DNA of 64,000 nt from Polaribacter sp. SA4-12 (GTDB lineage: Bacteria > Bacteroidota > Bacteroidia > Flavobacteriales > Flavobacteriaceae): the NCBI RefSeq assembly GCF_002163675.1, contig NZ_CP019334.1, positions 2,337,501-2,401,500 of the forward strand, written 5' to 3'. How positions within the stretch are numbered: position 1 is the first letter of the stretch; every line of letters begins with the position of its first letter. Shown here piece by piece: positions 29,243-35,872 of this stretch. The translations under genes and the position numbers were made by a program. The notes below the pieces were generated by a model. The model was not told where the DNA came from. It saw nothing but the letters and a program-made list of their open reading frames with translations, and did not search any database.

Positions 29243-29310
29243 TCACTGAAAACAGTTAGAGAACTCACCATTTTCGGTGAGGACAATATTTCACCGTTTT
29301 CAGTGATTGC
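29243..29310 (+). repeat. Triple-palindrome block, left copy
   Basis: Three imperfect TCAC...GTGA palindromes start at 29243, 29265 and 29291 (spacing 22 and 26 bases). A second copy lies at 33787-33854; I count 54 of 68 identical positions without gaps. The block ends in the TTG of a promoter-like pair, so it looks like an operator array (inference). Confidence 0.75.
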
Positions 29311-29337
29311 GATATTAGTAATAAAATTATAAGTTTG
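29307..29337 (+). promoter_or_regulatory. Promoter-like TTG-N20-TAAGTTTG upstream of the protease
   Basis: TTG at 29307-29309, a 20-base spacer, and TAAGTTTG at 29330-29337, a perfect TAnnTTTG match. A start near 29344 would give the protease mRNA a leader of about 190 bases. The same spacing is seen in the right-hand copy. Confidence 0.5.
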
Positions 29338-29533
29338 TAACGAATAATTCATTTAATTAAGTTTATTTAACTTTAAAATAAAATATTTTGCAATCAAAAT
29401 TTCAAAACCGTCAAACAGCATAATGGTTCTAAATTATAACTCACACACCATTTAAGTCTCATCGTTTAGACTTTTCAAAAAAAAAGCGATACAAATTAAT
29501 TCAAATAATCATTATTTAAAAACCACAAAAACA

Positions 29534-32500
29534 ATGAAAAAAAGTTACTTCAGTAAACTTCTTATTATAGGAGTTTTTTTCGCGTTCAACTTTAATTTGC
29601 ATGCACAAAAGCAAACTGAGTTGAAAAAAATTAGTGGCAAGTACAATCAAGAAAAATTAACCATTTTAAAAAAGGATTTCAAAGAAAAGGCTTCTATTGA
29701 AAAACTAAAAGCAAACAAAATTGCAAAAGAAAAAGGATGGAAAATTAAATTCACAAACAAAAAAGGTGAATTACAAGAACTCCAGAAAGTAGTAAACGGA
29801 AAACCTATTTATTACACAACATTTAATGTTGCCGCAGCAAAATCTACTAGAGTAGATCACTTAAACTCTGGAGGATCTTTAGGTTTAAACTTAGACGGAC
29901 AAAATATGACCGCTTATGTTTGGGATGGTGGAGTTGCAAGAGCATCTCATCAAGAATATGATGGAGCTGGTGGAAATAATAGATTTTCTACAGGAGATTC
30001 AGGTTCTTTAAATTACCACTCTGCCCACGTAACAGGAACAATTATAGCTTCAGGAGTAGTTGCCAATGCAAAAGGTATGGCTTCTCACGCTCAAGCAATA
30101 GGATATGACTGGAACAGTGATCTTGCTGAAGCTACTACAGCTGCTGCAAATGGTATGCTAATTTCCAATCACTCTTATGGTTATGCCGCAAGAAACAGTG
30201 CTGGTCAAGTACAATTACCTCAATATTATTTTGGTGGTTACATAGAAGACTCTAGAGACTGGGATGAAATTATGTTTAATGCACCAAATTATTTAATGGT
30301 AGTTGCCGCTGGAAATGACGGTACAGATGATACAGCGAATACAAACCCAACAGGAGGTTCAGGATTTGACAAATTAACAGGTCATTCAACATCAAAAAAT
30401 AACTTAGTAGTTGCAGCAGCTAATGATGCAAATGTAGATGCAAACGGAAACTTAATAAGTACTACAATTGCTACTTTTAGTAGTGAAGGACCAACTGATG
30501 ACTTCCGTATTAAGCCAGATATTGCTGGTAATGGAGTTTCTGTATATTCTACTTACGAAACTAGTGATACTGCATATAATTCAATTTCAGGAACATCAAT
30601 GGCTTCGCCAAATGTTGCCGGATCATTAATATTATTGCAACAACACGCTAATAATGTAAATGGTTCTTTTATGAAAGCAGCAACCTTAAAAGGATTAGCA
30701 CTGCACACTGCAGATGATTCTGGAGTTTCTGGACCTGATGCAATTTTTGGATGGGGATTAATGAATACTAAAGCAGCAGCAGAAGCTATTACACAAAATG
30801 GAAATGAAGCAAAGATCGAAGAACTTACATTAACAAGTGGTCAATCATATCAAATCACAGTAGATTCTGATGGTGTTAATGATTTAATAGCTTCAATTTC
30901 TTGGACAGATAGAGCAGGAACAGCTAATACAGGAACTGTAAATTTAACAACACCTGTTTTAGTAAATGATTTAGATATTAGAGTTACTCAAGGAGGAACA
31001 ACAAGTTTCCCTTATGAGTTAACAGGAGCAACAACAAACGCTAAACAAGACAATAATGTTGACCCTTATGAAAGAGTTGATGTTGCAAATGCTTCAGGAA
31101 CTTACACAATTACTGTAACCAACAAAGGAACTTTAACTGGTGGAAGTCAAAATTACTCTTTAATTGTAACTGGTTTAACAGGAACACCTGTTATTTGTAA
31201 TGCTACAACTCCTTCTAATCTTACTATTGATGGATTTGGATCTTCTACAGCTACAGCTTCTTGGAATGCAGTTGCTGGTACTTCTTACGATTTTAGATAC
31301 AGACAAACAGGAACCTCTACTTGGGCTACTTCTGCAGTTGCAGGAACATCTACTTCTTTATCAGGATTAACTCCACTAACTTCATACGAAATACAAGTAA
31401 GAAGCAAGTGTCCAGATAATTCTACATCAGCATATAGCGCATCAGCAAGTTTTACAACAACAGAAGTGCAACTTAACTACTGTGCTTCTAACGGAAATAG
31501 TGTTGCTGATGAATATATTAGTAATGTAAATTTAGGAAGTATTAATAATACTTCTGGTGCTTCATCTGGAGGATATGCAGATTACACTTCTCAATCTACA
31601 AGTTTAACTAAAGGAGCTTCTTCAACAATTACTATAACTCCAACTTGGACAGGAACTGTATATAGCGAAGGTTATGCTGTTTTTATTGATTATAATAAAG
31701 ATGGAGATTTTGTTGATAGTGGTGAAACTGTTTGGACAAACGCAGCTTCACAAACAACACCAGTAAGTGGTTCTTTTACTGTGCCAACATCAGCAATTAC
31801 AGGTGCAACAAGAATGCGTGTTGTTATGCAATATAATGCTACTCCTTCTGCTTGTGGTTCATTTGATTATGGAGAAACTGAAGACTATACCGTAAATATT
31901 ACTGGTGGAGTTGCAGATACAACTGCTCCAATAATTACTTTAACAGGAGCATCAACAATAAATTTAAATGTTGGTGATACTTATAATGAATTAGGCGCAA
32001 CAGCTTCAGATAATATTGATGGAAATTTAACTTCTAGCATAGTTACTTCAGGAACAGTAAACACAAGTAGTGTAGGATCTTATACTGTAAATTATAATGT
32101 AAGTGATGCTGCTGGAAATGCTGCAACTCAAGTTTCAAGAACTGTAAATGTTAGTGATGGAACAGCTCCAATTATAACATTAAACGGAGCGTCAACGACT
32201 AATCTAACAGTTGGTGATACTTATACAGAACAAGGAGCAACTGCAACAGATAATGTTGATGGAAATTTAACTTCTAGCATAATCACCACAGGAACAGTAA
32301 ACACAAATTTAGCAGGAACTTATACTGTAAATTACAATGTAAGTGATGCTGCTGGAAATGCTGCAACTCAAGTTTCAAGAACAGTAAACGTAAATAACGT
32401 TAGCACTGGTGGTTGTACTAATGGTGTTTCAACTTTTCCTTATAGTGAAGGATTTGAAAATACTTTAGGATCTTGGACACAATCTTCATCAGATGATATT

Positions 32501-33727
32501 GATTGGACTATAAATTCTGGAGGAACTCCATCTGGTAGCACAGGACCAAGTTCTGCAAATCAAGGTACTTACTACATTTATGTAGAAGCTTCAGGCGATG
32601 GAACAGGTTACCCAACAAAACAAGCTATAATTAATTCTCCTTGTTATGATTTATCAGGTGAAACAGAAGCTTCTTTTTCTTTTGACTATCATATGTATGG
32701 AGCTGCTGATATAGGAACAATTGCTTTAGAAATCAGTTCAGATAATGGTTCTACTTGGACTAGCATCTGGAATGAATCTGGAAATAAAGGTAATTCTTGG
32801 CTAAATGCTAGCGTTAATTTAAATGCTTATGTTGGAGGTAGTGTTCAATTACGTTTTAATAGAGTTACTGGAAGCACTTGGCAAGCTGATATTGCCTTAG
32901 ACAATGTTCAAATCACAAATGGAGGTAGCACAGGAAATGGATGTACAGCAGAAATAACATCATTCCCTTATACTCAAGGTTTTGAAAACACACTTGGTTC
33001 TTGGAGTCAATCTTCATCTGATGATATTGACTGGTCTGTAAACTCAAGCACAACTCCTTCTAGTAATACAGGTCCTGCTTCTGCAAACCAAGGTACTTAC
33101 TATATTTATGTTGAAGCTTCTGGAAGCGGAACAGGTTACCCAACAAAACAAGCTATAATTAATTCTCCTTGTTTTGATTTATCTGGATTATCAGTTGCAT
33201 CATTTAATTTTGATTATCATATGTATGGAGCTACAGATATGGGAACAATGGACTTAGAAGCTAGTAATGATAATGGAGCAACTTGGACAAGTATTTGGAG
33301 TCAATCTGGAAACCTAGGAAACTCTTGGTTATCTGCAAGTGTAGATCTTTCTTCATACTTAGGAAGCACAGTTCAGTTAAGATTTAATAGAATTACTGGT
33401 GCAACTTGGCAAGCAGATATTGCTATAGATAATATTAGCCTTACAAACACTGCTGCTAATAATACTAGTTTATATGTCACTTACAACTCTAATGAGTCTA
33501 ACAAGACATTTAAAATGTATCCAAATCCTGCTAAAGACTTACTAAATGTAAGATTAGCTACAGAAGGACAAAATAGCTTTAGAATTATAGATATTACTGG
33601 TAAAACCATAAAATCTGGAAGTATTTCTAAAGAATCTATCAATATTGCTAATTTAAAAGTAGGAATTTATTTGATAGAAATTAATGATGGAGAAGAAATT
33701 ATTATAGAAAAATTCATAAAACTATAA
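29534..33727 (+). CDS. Secreted S8 (subtilisin-like) serine protease with T9SS sorting domain
   Basis: 1397-residue exported protease. A signal peptide (1-25) and prosegment are followed by the S8 domain with Asp131 (YVWDGG), His162 (NYHSAHVTG), oxyanion Asn261 and Ser355 (SGTSMASPNVAGS), so the catalytic triad is complete. Then come a fibronectin type III domain (about 555-645), a GEVED domain (about 648-792), two tandem 80-residue DUF5011-type Ig-like units (795-954), two MAM-like units of about 176 residues (961-1310), and a type A T9SS sorting domain (about 1325-1397, starting FKMYPNPAKDLLNVRL). It is thus a T9SS cargo that is released or anchored at the surface. Confidence 0.93.
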   Translation: MKKSYFSKLLIIGVFFAFNFNLHAQKQTELKKISGKYNQEKLTILKKDFKEKASIEKLKANKIAKEKGWKIKFTNKKGELQELQKVVNGKPIYYTTFNVAAAKSTRVDHLNSGGSLGLNLDGQNMTAYVWDGGVARASHQEYDGAGGNNRFSTGDSGSLNYHSAHVTGTIIASGVVANAKGMASHAQAIGYDWNSDLAEATTAAANGMLISNHSYGYAARNSAGQVQLPQYYFGGYIEDSRDWDEIMFNAPNYLMVVAAGNDGTDDTANTNPTGGSGFDKLTGHSTSKNNLVVAAANDANVDANGNLISTTIATFSSEGPTDDFRIKPDIAGNGVSVYSTYETSDTAYNSISGTSMASPNVAGSLILLQQHANNVNGSFMKAATLKGLALHTADDSGVSGPDAIFGWGLMNTKAAAEAITQNGNEAKIEELTLTSGQSYQITVDSDGVNDLIASISWTDRAGTANTGTVNLTTPVLVNDLDIRVTQGGTTSFPYELTGATTNAKQDNNVDPYERVDVANASGTYTITVTNKGTLTGGSQNYSLIVTGLTGTPVICNATTPSNLTIDGFGSSTATASWNAVAGTSYDFRYRQTGTSTWATSAVAGTSTSLSGLTPLTSYEIQVRSKCPDNSTSAYSASASFTTTEVQLNYCASNGNSVADEYISNVNLGSINNTSGASSGGYADYTSQSTSLTKGASSTITITPTWTGTVYSEGYAVFIDYNKDGDFVDSGETVWTNAASQTTPVSGSFTVPTSAITGATRMRVVMQYNATPSACGSFDYGETEDYTVNITGGVADTTAPIITLTGASTINLNVGDTYNELGATASDNIDGNLTSSIVTSGTVNTSSVGSYTVNYNVSDAAGNAATQVSRTVNVSDGTAPIITLNGASTTNLTVGDTYTEQGATATDNVDGNLTSSIITTGTVNTNLAGTYTVNYNVSDAAGNAATQVSRTVNVNNVSTGGCTNGVSTFPYSEGFENTLGSWTQSSSDDIDWTINSGGTPSGSTGPSSANQGTYYIYVEASGDGTGYPTKQAIINSPCYDLSGETEASFSFDYHMYGAADIGTIALEISSDNGSTWTSIWNESGNKGNSWLNASVNLNAYVGGSVQLRFNRVTGSTWQADIALDNVQITNGGSTGNGCTAEITSFPYTQGFENTLGSWSQSSSDDIDWSVNSSTTPSSNTGPASANQGTYYIYVEASGSGTGYPTKQAIINSPCFDLSGLSVASFNFDYHMYGATDMGTMDLEASNDNGATWTSIWSQSGNLGNSWLSASVDLSSYLGSTVQLRFNRITGATWQADIAIDNISLTNTAANNTSLYVTYNSNESNKTFKMYPNPAKDLLNVRLATEGQNSFRIIDITGKTIKSGSISKESINIANLKVGIYLIEINDGEEIIIEKFIKL
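31916..32395 (+). repeat. Two tandem 240-bp units coding for DUF5011-type domains
   Basis: Units begin at 31916 and 32156, exactly 80 codons apart, and encode nearly the same Ig-like domain (APIITL ... GNAATQVSRTVNV). Long stretches are identical at DNA level, so unequal recombination could change the copy number. Confidence 0.8.
32414..33460 (+). repeat. Two tandem 528-bp units coding for MAM-like domains
   Basis: Units begin at 32414 and 32942, 176 codons apart, and share long near-identical stretches (for example GTYYIYVEAS, GYPTKQAIINSPC and FNFDYHMYGA-like segments). They look like a recent internal duplication. Confidence 0.8.
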
Positions 33728-33750
33728 AATTATTTGAATTACTTCTCATT

Positions 33751-33778
33751 AAAACCCAAGCAATTGCTTGGGTTTTTT
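33751..33778 (+). terminator. Terminator after the protease gene
   Basis: Palindrome with arms AAACCCAAGCAA and TTGCTTGGGTTT followed by T residues, 23 bases after the stop. The core is identical to the terminator after mscL. Confidence 0.85.
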
Positions 33779-33786
33779 CATTTTAA

Positions 33787-33854
33787 TCACTGATTTCAGT
33801 GAAATATCTCACCATTTTCAGTGAGGTAAAAATTTCACTGTTTTCAGGGATTGA
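33787..33854 (+). repeat. Triple-palindrome block, right copy
   Basis: Palindromes start at 33787, 33809 and 33835, with the same 22 and 26 base spacing as the left copy at 29243-29310. The best unit reads TCACTGATTTCAGTGA. It ends in TTGACA, which lies 20 bases before TATATTTA. Confidence 0.75.
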
Positions 33855-33881
33855 CAAGGAGATTTATTAGATCTATATTTA
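33851..33881 (+). promoter_or_regulatory. Promoter-like TTG-N20-TATATTTA
   Basis: TTG at 33851-33853, a 20-base spacer and TATATTTA at 33874-33881 (one mismatch to TAnnTTTG). Position and spacing relative to the palindromes equal those of the left copy exactly (offset 4544 at every element). Confidence 0.45.
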
Positions 33882-33887
33882 CAATAT

Positions 33888-33975
33888 CATAGTAAACATT
33901 TAATTTAATTCCCCCAAGAATCCCCCTTAAAAATTAAATGCCATCAAAAACCCAAGTTAACGCTTGGGTTTTTTG
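33888..33975 (+). ncRNA. Candidate small RNA or attenuator leader upstream of the ABC-F gene
   Basis: Between a promoter-like element and an intrinsic terminator lies a stretch of about 88 bases with no gene of its own. It forms an 8-base stem CATTTAAT/ATTAAATG (33897-33940) whose loop carries two CCCCC runs, then a terminator. CCCAAG in the loop equals CCCAAG in the terminator arm, so both could pair with CTTGGG. Either a small RNA or a leader controlling the ABC-F gene is possible. Confidence 0.4.
33946..33975 (+). terminator. Terminator immediately before the ABC-F gene
   Basis: Arms AAAACCCAAG and CTTGGGTTTT with loop TTAACG, followed by TTTTTTG. No gene ends here: the previous gene already has a terminator at 33751-33778. 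It lies 28 bases before the GTG start of the ABC-F gene. Confidence 0.8.
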
Positions 33976-34003: not shown

Positions 34004-35872
34004 GTGAATTATTTATCAGTAGAAAATATCTCTAAAGCTTATGGAGAACGTGTTTTGTTTGAAGACATCTCTTTTGGAATTAGTAAAGATCAAAAAGTTG
34101 CATTTGTAGCTAAAAATGGTAGTGGAAAAACATCAATCTTAAATATTATTGCTGGTTTAGATGTTCCTGATTCTGGACAAGTAGTTAGTAGAAAAGGTAT
34201 TTCTATGGCTTATTTAGCTCAGAAAGATGATATTAACCCAGAGTTAACTATCGAAGAAACTATTTTCGCTACTGATAATAAAATTCTTTCTATTGTTAAT
34301 CAATATGAAAAGGCTTTAAAGAACTTGGATGATGGAGATGCATACCAAGCTGCTTTCGATTTAATGGACCAACATAATGCTTGGGATTTTGAAACTCAAT
34401 ACAGACAGATTTTATCAAAATTAAAATTAGACGATTTAACTTTAAAAGTAGGTTCACTTTCTGGAGGACAAAGAAAACGTCTTTCTTTAGCAATTGTTTT
34501 AATTAATAAACCAGATTTATTAATTCTTGATGAGCCAACAAATCATTTAGATTTAGAAATGATAGAATGGTTAGAGGCTTTCTTTGCAAAAGAAAAGATT
34601 ACCTTATTTATGGTTACACACGACCGTTATTTCTTAGAGCGTGTTTGTAATGAAATTTTGGAATTAGACGAAGGTAAAATATACAAATACAAAGGAAACT
34701 ATTCTTACTATTTACAAAATAAAGAAGAACGTATTGCTTTAGAAGCTACCAATTTAGGAAAAGCTAAAAGTTTATTTAAAAAGGAATTAGAATGGATGCG
34801 AAAGCAGCCAAAGGCTAGAACTACAAAATCGAAGTCAAGAACAGATGATTTCTATCAAATTAAAGAGAAAGCACACCAACGTAGACAAGATCATCAAGTT
34901 CAATTAGAAATTAATATGGAGCGTTTAGGAAGTAAAATTCTTGAACTTCATAATGTATCTAAATCTTTTGGTGATAAGAAAATATTAGACGGTTTCGAAT
35001 ATATTTTTAAACGTGGAGAACGTGTAGGAATTATTGGTAAAAACGGAACAGGAAAATCATCTTTTTTAAATATTATTACAGGAACATCTGAATTAGATAG
35101 CGGTAAAGTTATTTTAGGTGAAACTGTAAAGTATGGTTATTACACACAAGCTGGAATTCAGATTAAAGAAGGACAAAAAGTAATTGATGTAGTTAAAGAA
35201 TTTGGAGAATTTATCCCTTTAACAAAAGGAAGAAAAATTTCTGCTTCACAATTATTAGAACGCTTTTTATTCGATAAAAAGAAACAATATGATTTTGTTG
35301 AAAGATTATCTGGTGGAGAACAAAAACGTTTGTATTTATGCGCCGTTTTAATTCAGAATCCTAACTTCTTAATTTTAGATGAGCCTACAAATGATTTAGA
35401 TGTTGTAACCCTAAATGTTTTAGAAAACTTCTTATTAGATTACCCAGGAAATCTTTTAGTTGTTTCTCACGACAGGTATTTTATGGATAAAATTGTTGAT
35501 GCACTTTTTGTTTTTAGAGGCGAAGGTGTTGTTGAAAATTTCCCAGGAAATTACTCAGATTTTAGAGCGTATGACAATTCTGGCACAAAAGAAATTACAG
35601 AAAAATACGTCATAAAAAAGGAAGAGAAAAAACCTGCTAAAAAAGAAAATAAAAATGCATTAAGCTTTAATGAAAAAAGAGAATTTGGTGCTTTAGAAAG
35701 TGATATTGAAAGACTTCAAAGAAAAAAAGAAGCAATAGAGAAGCAGTTTTTAAACGTTGAAATAGCACCTGATGATATTGCAGCAAAATCTGAAGAGCTA
35801 CAAGAAACAATCACAAAATTAGAGGAAAAGGAAGAGCGTTGGTTAGAGCTTTCTATGAAAATAGAAGATTAA
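34004..35872 (+). CDS. ABC-F family ATPase (Uup-like)
   Basis: 622 residues from the GTG at 34004, giving MNYLSVENISKAYGE. Two ABC domains are complete: Walker A AKNGSGKTS, signature LSGGQRKRLS, Walker B LLILDEPTNHLDL; then GKNGTGKSS, LSGGEQKRLYL and FLILDEPTNDLDV. The linker between them and the C-terminal coiled coil (about 560-622) make it Uup-like. ABC-F proteins are soluble and act on the ribosome, some giving antibiotic resistance. An ATG at 33938 is in frame but would place a terminator and a promoter-like TTTCTTTG (33976-33983) inside the coding region, so I reject it. Confidence 0.88.
   Translation: MNYLSVENISKAYGERVLFEDISFGISKDQKVAFVAKNGSGKTSILNIIAGLDVPDSGQVVSRKGISMAYLAQKDDINPELTIEETIFATDNKILSIVNQYEKALKNLDDGDAYQAAFDLMDQHNAWDFETQYRQILSKLKLDDLTLKVGSLSGGQRKRLSLAIVLINKPDLLILDEPTNHLDLEMIEWLEAFFAKEKITLFMVTHDRYFLERVCNEILELDEGKIYKYKGNYSYYLQNKEERIALEATNLGKAKSLFKKELEWMRKQPKARTTKSKSRTDDFYQIKEKAHQRRQDHQVQLEINMERLGSKILELHNVSKSFGDKKILDGFEYIFKRGERVGIIGKNGTGKSSFLNIITGTSELDSGKVILGETVKYGYYTQAGIQIKEGQKVIDVVKEFGEFIPLTKGRKISASQLLERFLFDKKKQYDFVERLSGGEQKRLYLCAVLIQNPNFLILDEPTNDLDVVTLNVLENFLLDYPGNLLVVSHDRYFMDKIVDALFVFRGEGVVENFPGNYSDFRAYDNSGTKEITEKYVIKKEEKKPAKKENKNALSFNEKREFGALESDIERLQRKKEAIEKQFLNVEIAPDDIAAKSEELQETITKLEEKEERWLELSMKIED

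Follow-up and report, generated by a model that had tools for sequence, protein, structure and literature searches.

Two blocks of palindromes beside a protease gene

The stretch of DNA analysed here, called the window, comprises 64,000 nucleotides (positions 2337501-2401500) of the 3.99-Mb genome of Polaribacter sp. SA4-12. The subject of this work is a pair of similar palindromic blocks that lie on both sides of a gene for a secreted protease, together with the two-component regulatory system to which they would belong. All features given below are on the plus strand and are numbered from the first letter of the window. Block 1 (29243-29310) and block 2 (33787-33854) are identical at 54 of 68 bases, and a repeat search finds them as a 67-nt direct repeat (81%) with a spacing of 4544. 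Each block contains three palindromes (P1, P2 and P3), with 22 bases from the first start to the second and 26 from the second to the third, every element being offset by 4544. This recount agrees with the original prediction, which had been made from the sequence, with the qualification that the palindromes are imperfect: 5, 5 and 5 of 8 positions are self-complementary in block 1, and 7, 4 and 5 of 8 in block 2.

In block 1, which would be the operator of the protease promoter, P1 is TCACTGAAAACAGTTA (29243-29258), P2 is TCACCATTTTCGGTGA (29265-29280), and P3 (29291-29306) adjoins the -33 box. The corresponding palindromes of block 2 are TCACTGATTTCAGTGA (33787-33802), TCACCATTTTCAGTGA (33809-33824) and TCACTGTTTTCAGGGA (33835-33850), the last one being centred some 44 bp ahead of the start expected from the -7 box. 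P1 of block 1 has GTTA at its end, and P3 of block 2 has GGGA. In both blocks P3 is directly followed by TTG (at 29307 and 33851) and, exactly 20 bases later, by the boxes TAAGTTTG (29330-29337) and TATATTTA (33874-33881), so that the TAnnTTTG-like element previously described is exactly placed in both copies. The predicted promoters, from the first letter of TTG (-33 box) to the last letter of the -7 box, extend over 29307-29337 for the protease and 33851-33881 for a small RNA (sRNA).

The gene downstream of block 1 (29534-33727) is the likely target of this block. Domain matches and the arrays of its orthologues support this assignment: it codes for a secreted subtilisin-like S8 protease of 1397 amino acids (aa) in which MAM, GEVED and Ig-like domains are combined with a type IX sorting tail. 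An intrinsic terminator is predicted for its transcript at 33751-33776. Block 2 is followed by a predicted small RNA of about 88 nt, called sRNA-B (33886-33974), by its intrinsic terminator (33946-33973) and by an ABC-F gene (34004-35872), the start of which was deduced from orthologues, the longest frame beginning at 33938.

The probable regulator and its operators

The genome-wide search for palindrome arrays proposed in the original prediction was carried out with a degenerate two-palindrome pattern of the TCAC type, allowing up to 3 mismatches and using the reversed pattern as control. It returned 18 strand rows, corresponding to nine distinct places, and 8 rows for the control; the genome therefore contains at least nine arrays. 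The element TTG-N20-TAnnTTT follows all nine at the identical offset, and P3 touches the TTG in all of them. Since nine of nine stand at a promoter, numerous copies unrelated to promoters are not seen among those found by the pattern. The proposal that a regulator-binding array has been selected against the -33 box, and is common to both sites, is borne out by this fixed promoter distance. The description of the site as a pair of two copies has to be given up, because the arrays include the promoter of the regulator itself and those of three tandem sRNA genes. A stricter TCAC pattern was scanned against 97 genomes, 58 of them in the same genus group (the window's genome included); it was found in 8 of the 97, each of them a member of that group, and its control in 0 of 97.

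Apart from the protease and sRNA-B sites of the window, one array precedes a response regulator (RR) gene and three precede the tandem sRNA genes, which are located between a GH31 gene and a gene that we take, from its sequence, to code for a peptide release factor. The remaining arrays precede genes for a likely lipoprotein of 199 aa (with a short frame between), a protein of 124 aa and a likely secreted protein of 146 aa, for which searches of Pfam and NCBIfam gave 0 matches.

The RR gene is situated about 900 kb from the blocks and is preceded by an array of its own. Its product (221 aa) contains a receiver domain (PF00072, E 2.3e-19) and a GerE domain (PF00196, E 1.4e-16). Among solved structures, its best matches are VraR, DesR, NarL, DevR and others of that type (best PDB E 2.6e-23). 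The regulator is thus most likely a NarL/LuxR-type response regulator. A LytTR-type regulator had been suggested, but the array-linked regulator carries GerE and gave no LytTR match, this search having been limited to that protein. Only ten bases separate the -7 box of the RR promoter from the ATG, so the RR mRNA would be nearly leaderless. Downstream of the RR gene there is a gene for a likely lipoprotein of 223 aa (no Pfam match), followed by one for a kinase of 605 aa with TPR, HisKA_3 and HATPase_c domains; from its position and domains, this kinase is the probable partner of the RR.

Matches to the RR at E <= 1e-60 are present in 76 of the 97 same-genus genomes. Seventy of these were fetched (30 loci and 40 more), 65 were parsed, and a promoter was parsed in 62. 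A scan of named genomes, from which the best 80 of 97 relatives were taken, shows close relatives in Polaribacter (up to 96%) and further ones in Tenacibaculum, Lutibacter and Aureivirga; two of its loci (L192, L256) are without an RR frame. The geometry of the RR promoter is largely kept in relatives, and the palindrome differs. It is CTCACTGAAAACAGTGAG in the species of the window, CTCCCCATTTATGGGGAG, ATCCCTGAATTCAGGGAT, CTCCCCCTTTAGGGGGAG or CTACGTATTTATACGTAG in other species, and AGGGTTAACCCT in Tenacibaculum, where the spacing is also different. In 37 of the 62 parsed promoters P2 and P1 are located 34 and 56 bp (each ±1) before TTG. These 37 formed the set used for Mantel tests, the other 25 being excluded because their palindromes were weak or at other offsets; the filter combined a stricter P1 rule with a P2 symmetry limit of 4/8, lowered from 5/8, by which the RR of the window's genome came to be included.

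In this set, operator distance is correlated with the distance between the 13-residue recognition helices (r 0.344, 0 of 5000 permutations). The correlation persists when receiver distance is given (partial Mantel, r 0.276, 0 of 5000) and when the rest of the helix-turn-helix (HTH) domain is taken out (r 0.252, 7 of 5000). Within the helix, residue 190 sorts the operators. It falls in a stretch aligned with VraR and NarL, at a place that we assume to belong to the recognition helix of VraR, NarL and DosR, and where a lysine of DosR presumably contacts bases. Among the 79 RRs of the named-genome scan plus that of the window's genome, examined by fixed motif scans, N190 goes with TCAC in 16 of 16 cases at up to one mismatch (13 at none), K190 with AGGGT..ACCCT in 28 of 28, H190 with TCCC in 10 of 10, S190 with TCCC in 16 of 17 and R190 with TACGTA in 3 of 4, leaving single rows with T, Y, A and G. 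Since the motifs were chosen beforehand from the promoter and Mantel analysis, and both genome sets overlap, this tally is a count and not an independent test. Five RRs outside the first parser's set (L081-L085), which were read afterwards and appear to be one group, combine N190 with TCAC palindromes in 5 of 5 cases. Distant N190 RRs of 52-60% identity (L217, L236-L238) also have TCAC-like sites. In the group of five (genomes G020, G057, G030, G129 and G011), P3 of the RR promoter is preceded by three TCAC-type palindromes, not two.

Two of the other operator classes are not restricted to RR genes. Genome-wide array scans covered the TCAC, TCCCTGANNTCAGGGA and TACGTA patterns, and the control patterns of the latter two gave zero matches. 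Pairs of TCCCTGANNTCAGGGA occur in 9 of the 97 same-genus genomes, namely eight with an H190 RR and one with S190 (G124), in which the match is at the RR promoter only; three further H190 genomes, G029 (53% completeness), G111 and G122, gave 0 matches for these pairs. Pairs of TACGTA were found in G006 (2 sites) and G053 (1 site), the RRs of which are R190, and in G118 (3 mismatches, no promoter). Arrays of both classes are hence almost confined to genomes with the matching RR. The element TTG-N20-TAnnTTT is at the expected offset in 17 of the 21 loci of these classes (the exceptions are L110, L117, L125 and L127), and among the 21 are RR genes, likely lipoprotein genes and sRNAs that share the terminator motif. 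The best reading of these comparisons is that operator and recognition helix would have evolved together, ancestry being partly controlled for.

A leader-like core, AAATGTGA(A/G)AGTTGAAACCGAAAT, is common to three of these loci (L108, L124 and L125) in three genomes, behind arrays of different palindrome classes, and might be a structured RNA.

The predicted sRNA-B and other C-run RNAs

The predicted sRNA-B has a stem formed by CAUUUAAUUU and AAAUUAAAUG, a loop with two CCCCC runs (33911-33915 and 33922-33926) and the terminator AAAAACCCAAG-TTAACG-CTTGGGTTTTT. Its fold, terminator included, has a z score of -4.81 and beats 200 of 200 shuffles. Relatives of this RNA were sought upstream of ABC-F genes, for which matches exist in 90 of the 97 genomes; 49 upstream regions were examined. 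An array was recognized by the parser in 22 of them and by eye in four more (G015, G025, G042 and G115), giving 26, of which two (G025 and G043) are degenerate. Twenty-five sRNA-B sequences were extracted, and 24 contain a run of at least four C. Single-sequence folds leave 37 of 40 C-runs unpaired, a figure without a null that is partly expected in a G-poor RNA. The 23 array-less regions have a C-run in one case (G040) and a strong hairpin in five (recounted). A stem score of at least 14 is reached in 24 of the 26 array-bearing regions and in 5 of the 23 array-less ones (recounted), the latter being G040, G125 and the unrelated hairpins of G114, G120 and G130. The terminator is often weakened in array-less relatives: its strength differed between both groups (Mann-Whitney p 0.0003) before G015 and G025, then counted as array-less, were regrouped as array-bearing, G042 and G115 having been assigned by eye. 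The terminator scan covered 125 nt, and the hairpins of G013 and G021 fall outside it; in these genomes the RNA and its terminator are well upstream of the ABC-F gene.

In 24 of the 26 array-bearing genomes (G025 and G117 were left out), the ABC-F-side operator was compared with the RR operator of the same genome. The similarity is 0.893, against 0.676 for permuted pairs (0 of 20,000), and the match also holds within each class (139, 128 and 35 of 20,000). In 15 of the 24, no other genome's RR operator matches better than that of the own genome. In 19 of the 26 array-bearing genomes no protease match is found at E <= 1e-120, and in G021 the interval from the nucleotidyltransferase gene to the array contains no frame of 150 aa. 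The occurrence of array and RNA in such genomes indicates that block 2 is to be assigned to the RNA rather than to the protease. Together with the terminator after about 88 nt, the fold and the C-run loop, this indicates that the product driven by block 2 is probably a terminated small RNA of about 88 nt, and that the ABC-F gene is probably not under its control. The claim that the protease and a leader of the ABC-F gene are under one regulator is supported in part, as regards the shared array, but the presumed leader is predicted to be sRNA-B.

Directly after a coding frame upstream of the ABC-F gene of G040 (L160), with no array between, there is an sRNA-B-like C-run with a terminator, as if the RNA had turned into a 3' untranslated region (UTR). 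In the window, the terminators of the protease gene and sRNA-B (33751-33778 and 33947-33974) are near copies (86% over 28 nt), perhaps owing to a local duplication.

Runs of C are also found in the tandem small RNAs (sRNA-A). Tandem copies form three units in the window's genome, five arrays in G037, three in G033 and two in G005 and G045, while a single sRNA array is present in G039 and in four H-class loci. Each tandem unit of G037 (L032) and G033 (L036) has its own promoter and terminator. Twenty sRNA-A sequences contain 22 runs of at least four C, with one or more in 18 of 20 (null mean 0.83, maximum 5, 2000 shuffles). These 20 rows include one antisense artefact (L032_+937) and several near-identical copies; the second copy of the window's genome is absent from them, and C-runs are present in it by eye. 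A third source is the 3' UTR of the RR gene. In the 160 nt behind its stop codon, the 43 Polaribacter-side loci have 94 C-runs, with one or more in 34 of 43 (null 7.1, maximum 16 in 1000 shuffles), and the 34 loci of Tenacibaculum and others have 69, with one or more in 29 of 34 (null 8.7, maximum 18); the groups were assigned by record title and by hand. The 43 upstream controls contain 2 C-runs, and G-runs on the opposite strand of the RR 3' UTRs number 0 and 2. The noncoding DNA of the window (6356 bases) has six C- or G-runs, two of them inside sRNA-B. We think that these strand-specific C-runs in the RNAs of the regulon are the most interesting by-product of the analysis. The runs (UCCCC) on the sRNAs and the RR 3' UTR are probably pairing or protein-binding sites.

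With respect to pairing, perfect-complement sites (TTWGGGGGA) show no clear enrichment in the window's genome, with 21 matches against 17 for the reversed pattern. Fourteen of the 21 are inside frames of at least 80 aa, and three are just before an ATG that opens frames of 7, 13 and 17 codons only. None is a convincing start-codon site, and for this reason no target is claimed. RNAalifold kept the terminator stems alone, with compensatory pair types at 2 of 14 pairs in sRNA-A and 0 of 10 in sRNA-B, and a conserved 5' structure is therefore not claimed from the alignment.

With respect to proteins, two known partners were considered. CsrA (PF02599) has 0 matches in the window's genome (control found in 3 of 14), and a Csr/Rsm sponge RNA acting through CsrA was rejected on this ground. 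RbpB, the partner of the FopS RNAs, is an RRM protein; RRM_1 (PF00076) likewise has 0 matches in the genome (control found in 2 of 14), and an RNA of the FopS/RbpB type with an RRM partner was rejected too. A Csr-like circuit without CsrA can be imagined, in which the two-component system would flood the cell with UCCCC-displaying RNAs (tandem sRNAs, sRNA-B and the RR 3' UTR) that titrate an unknown C-run-binding protein, the operator code being rewritten together with the helix across species; we regard it as a doubtful, though not idle, idea.

A noncoding stretch elsewhere in the genome (G000:C1:1404881-1404906; L300, L301) has three C-runs followed by the terminator-like hairpin GCAGTTACTTTTAGTAACTGC and is perhaps a further C-run RNA. 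In Rfam searches, 11 array loci gave 7 weak matches and 0 at the gathering score. The sole match of the 64-kb window at the gathering score is a Flavo-1 RNA (RF01705, 40016-40104, plus strand, 53.4 bits), at another place than the blocks.

Mechanism, alternatives and known systems

These data make it likely, in our judgement, that the blocks are triple sites of one autoregulated NarL/LuxR-type RR which would activate the protease, sRNA-B, its own gene and the tandem sRNAs. The RR would bind the short palindromes as a dimer. According to this model, the TPR kinase would phosphorylate the RR, which would then occupy three dimer sites, their centres about 92, 70 and 44 bp before the start, and from a class II-like position would activate the -33/-7 promoter (TTG-N20-TAnnTTT). 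Block 1 would turn on the secreted protease and block 2 the terminated small RNA of about 88 nt, while the other arrays would govern the RR itself, the three tandem sRNA genes and the small proteins of unknown function. The RNAs of the regulon could base-pair with G-rich sites in mRNAs, in the way that LhrC acts under LisRK, or serve as decoys.

Different results weigh against parts of this model. Among 30 protease loci examined, a clear, class-matched array is found upstream of the gene in only 4 (G000, G001, G005 and G052); that of G025 has a degenerate array, and the other 25 show no array within 420 nt. One sRNA copy of the window's genome is without a run of four C. As regards the operator and the helix, operator distance is also correlated with receiver distance alone (r 0.288, 17 of 5000), and this correlation is still r 0.197 (262 of 5000) after removal of the helix; the whole HTH given the receiver yields a weaker correlation than the helix (r 0.175, 106 of 5000). 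When single columns are ranked, receiver positions 45 and 53, which vary in 3 of 37 rows, come before residue 190. At up to one mismatch, TCAC is also found with Y190 (1 of 1), H190 (3 of 10) and S190 (2 of 17), and TCCC with N190 (4 of 16). A tree test of N190 against TCAC, restricted to supported branches, offered five independent pairs, of which about 4 agree, 0 are opposite and 1 is a tie (p 0.125), and is underpowered. Finally, the promoter-side half of P3 is often a class-independent GGG (48 of 76 promoters). P3 may consequently be merely half an RR site, and sigma or the polymerase may read the GGG half.

A site that touches the -33 box could also repress. The same RR might thus work with the opposite sign, covering the -33 box at P3 so that the array genes are on when the RR is inactive. 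The contact of P3 with TTG in all nine arrays of the genome would suit this arrangement, and autorepression is common among regulators; however, three upstream sites with the nearest centre near -44 are the usual layout of class II activation, and the half of P3 nearest to the promoter is often not class-specific. We consider repression unlikely. It is still less probable that an unlinked DNA-binding protein reads the palindromes and that the RR gene is just one of its targets. The covariation of the operator with the whole RR is partly ancestry, as the receiver correlation indicates, and a first look for RR-like places in the genome gave 46 candidates. However, the operator follows the recognition helix beyond receiver distance, and residue 190 sorts the operator classes, also in the five RRs read later. 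Mobile or structural repeats of the REP (repetitive extragenic palindromic) type, with no regulator, would equally be palindromic, multicopy and partly tandem. We give this explanation almost no credence, since the promoter geometry is fixed in nine of nine arrays, symmetry and spacing are kept between species while the sequence changes, and the controls of the stricter, TCCCTGANNTCAGGGA and TACGTA patterns gave zero matches.

The transcript of block 2 deserves separate consideration. It runs towards the ABC-F gene and stops some 30 bp short of the start of that gene, and leaders with attenuators occur at ABC-F genes. An attenuator or antibiotic-responsive leader nevertheless seems improbable here: a terminator already stands at about 88 nt, RNA and terminator are far upstream of the gene in G013 and G021, C-runs and strong hairpins are scarce in the array-less regions, and the class of the ABC-F-side operator tracks the RR.

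Several known systems resemble parts of the predicted regulon. GacA drives RsmY and RsmZ, sponges of CsrA whose repeated motif is GGA. RR-driven sRNAs with repeated single-stranded motifs are common to both cases; however, there is no CsrA match in the genome studied here, the motif is a C-run instead of GGA, and the GacA/UvrY model scores 131.8 of 280 bits against the RR, far below the cut-off. NarL/FixJ regulators such as VraR, DesR, NarL and DevR share the receiver and GerE architecture, but here the triple site with its 22/26 spacing is fixed to a Bacteroidota -33/-7 promoter and the operator sequence varies between species.

The LhrC sRNAs of Listeria monocytogenes are encoded in several copies and depend on the two-component system LisRK (PMC4132741, in part), a dependence that shared operators would suggest here. 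They carry redundant UCCC motifs in loops, in a single-stranded stretch and in the terminator loop, and redundant motifs of this kind are also found in sRNA-A and, mostly unpaired in the folds, in sRNA-B. The differences are the phylum and the operator, since the consensus of the LisR site is given as not known in the part of that report considered, whereas a strict triple palindrome is present here. According to the same source, the pairing site of LhrC is G-rich and precedes the lapB start codon, while the complement sites of the present genome barely exceed their control. FopS of Bacteroides thetaiotaomicron provides a case of multicopy Bacteroidota sRNAs, one member being derived from a 3' UTR, and an unknown transcriptional regulator was proposed for them (PMC11697453, in part). 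However, they are described with canonical promoters and no palindrome array, and the word tandem is absent from the main text. Rfp18 of Flavobacterium psychrophilum is a flavobacterial sRNA tied to the expression of a secreted protease; no regulator or palindrome is described in the part of the report considered (PMC9723704). Among the literature matches listed, no paper deals with the RR, the array or the sRNA in Polaribacter or Tenacibaculum, most subscription journals being outside the coverage, which is in line with the statement in the original prediction that no description of such a site was known.

Flavobacteria are reported in the same partial source to lack Shine-Dalgarno sequences, which C-rich sRNAs usually target (PMC9723704). 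For these bacteria, the present analysis would make a regulator, its site and an sRNA family concrete. Taken from its genes and operators, the system is predicted to be a NarL-type two-component regulon with multicopy C-rich sRNAs, and it appears to be an unusually clear natural record of operator-helix change. The regulons, near-identical otherwise, form a natural series along which the operator has changed together with the helix that would read it: TCAC accompanies N, TCCC accompanies H and S, TACGTA accompanies R, and AGGGT..ACCCT accompanies K. This makes the code by which NarL-type regulators recognize DNA, and the survival of a regulon through a change of its operator, directly testable.

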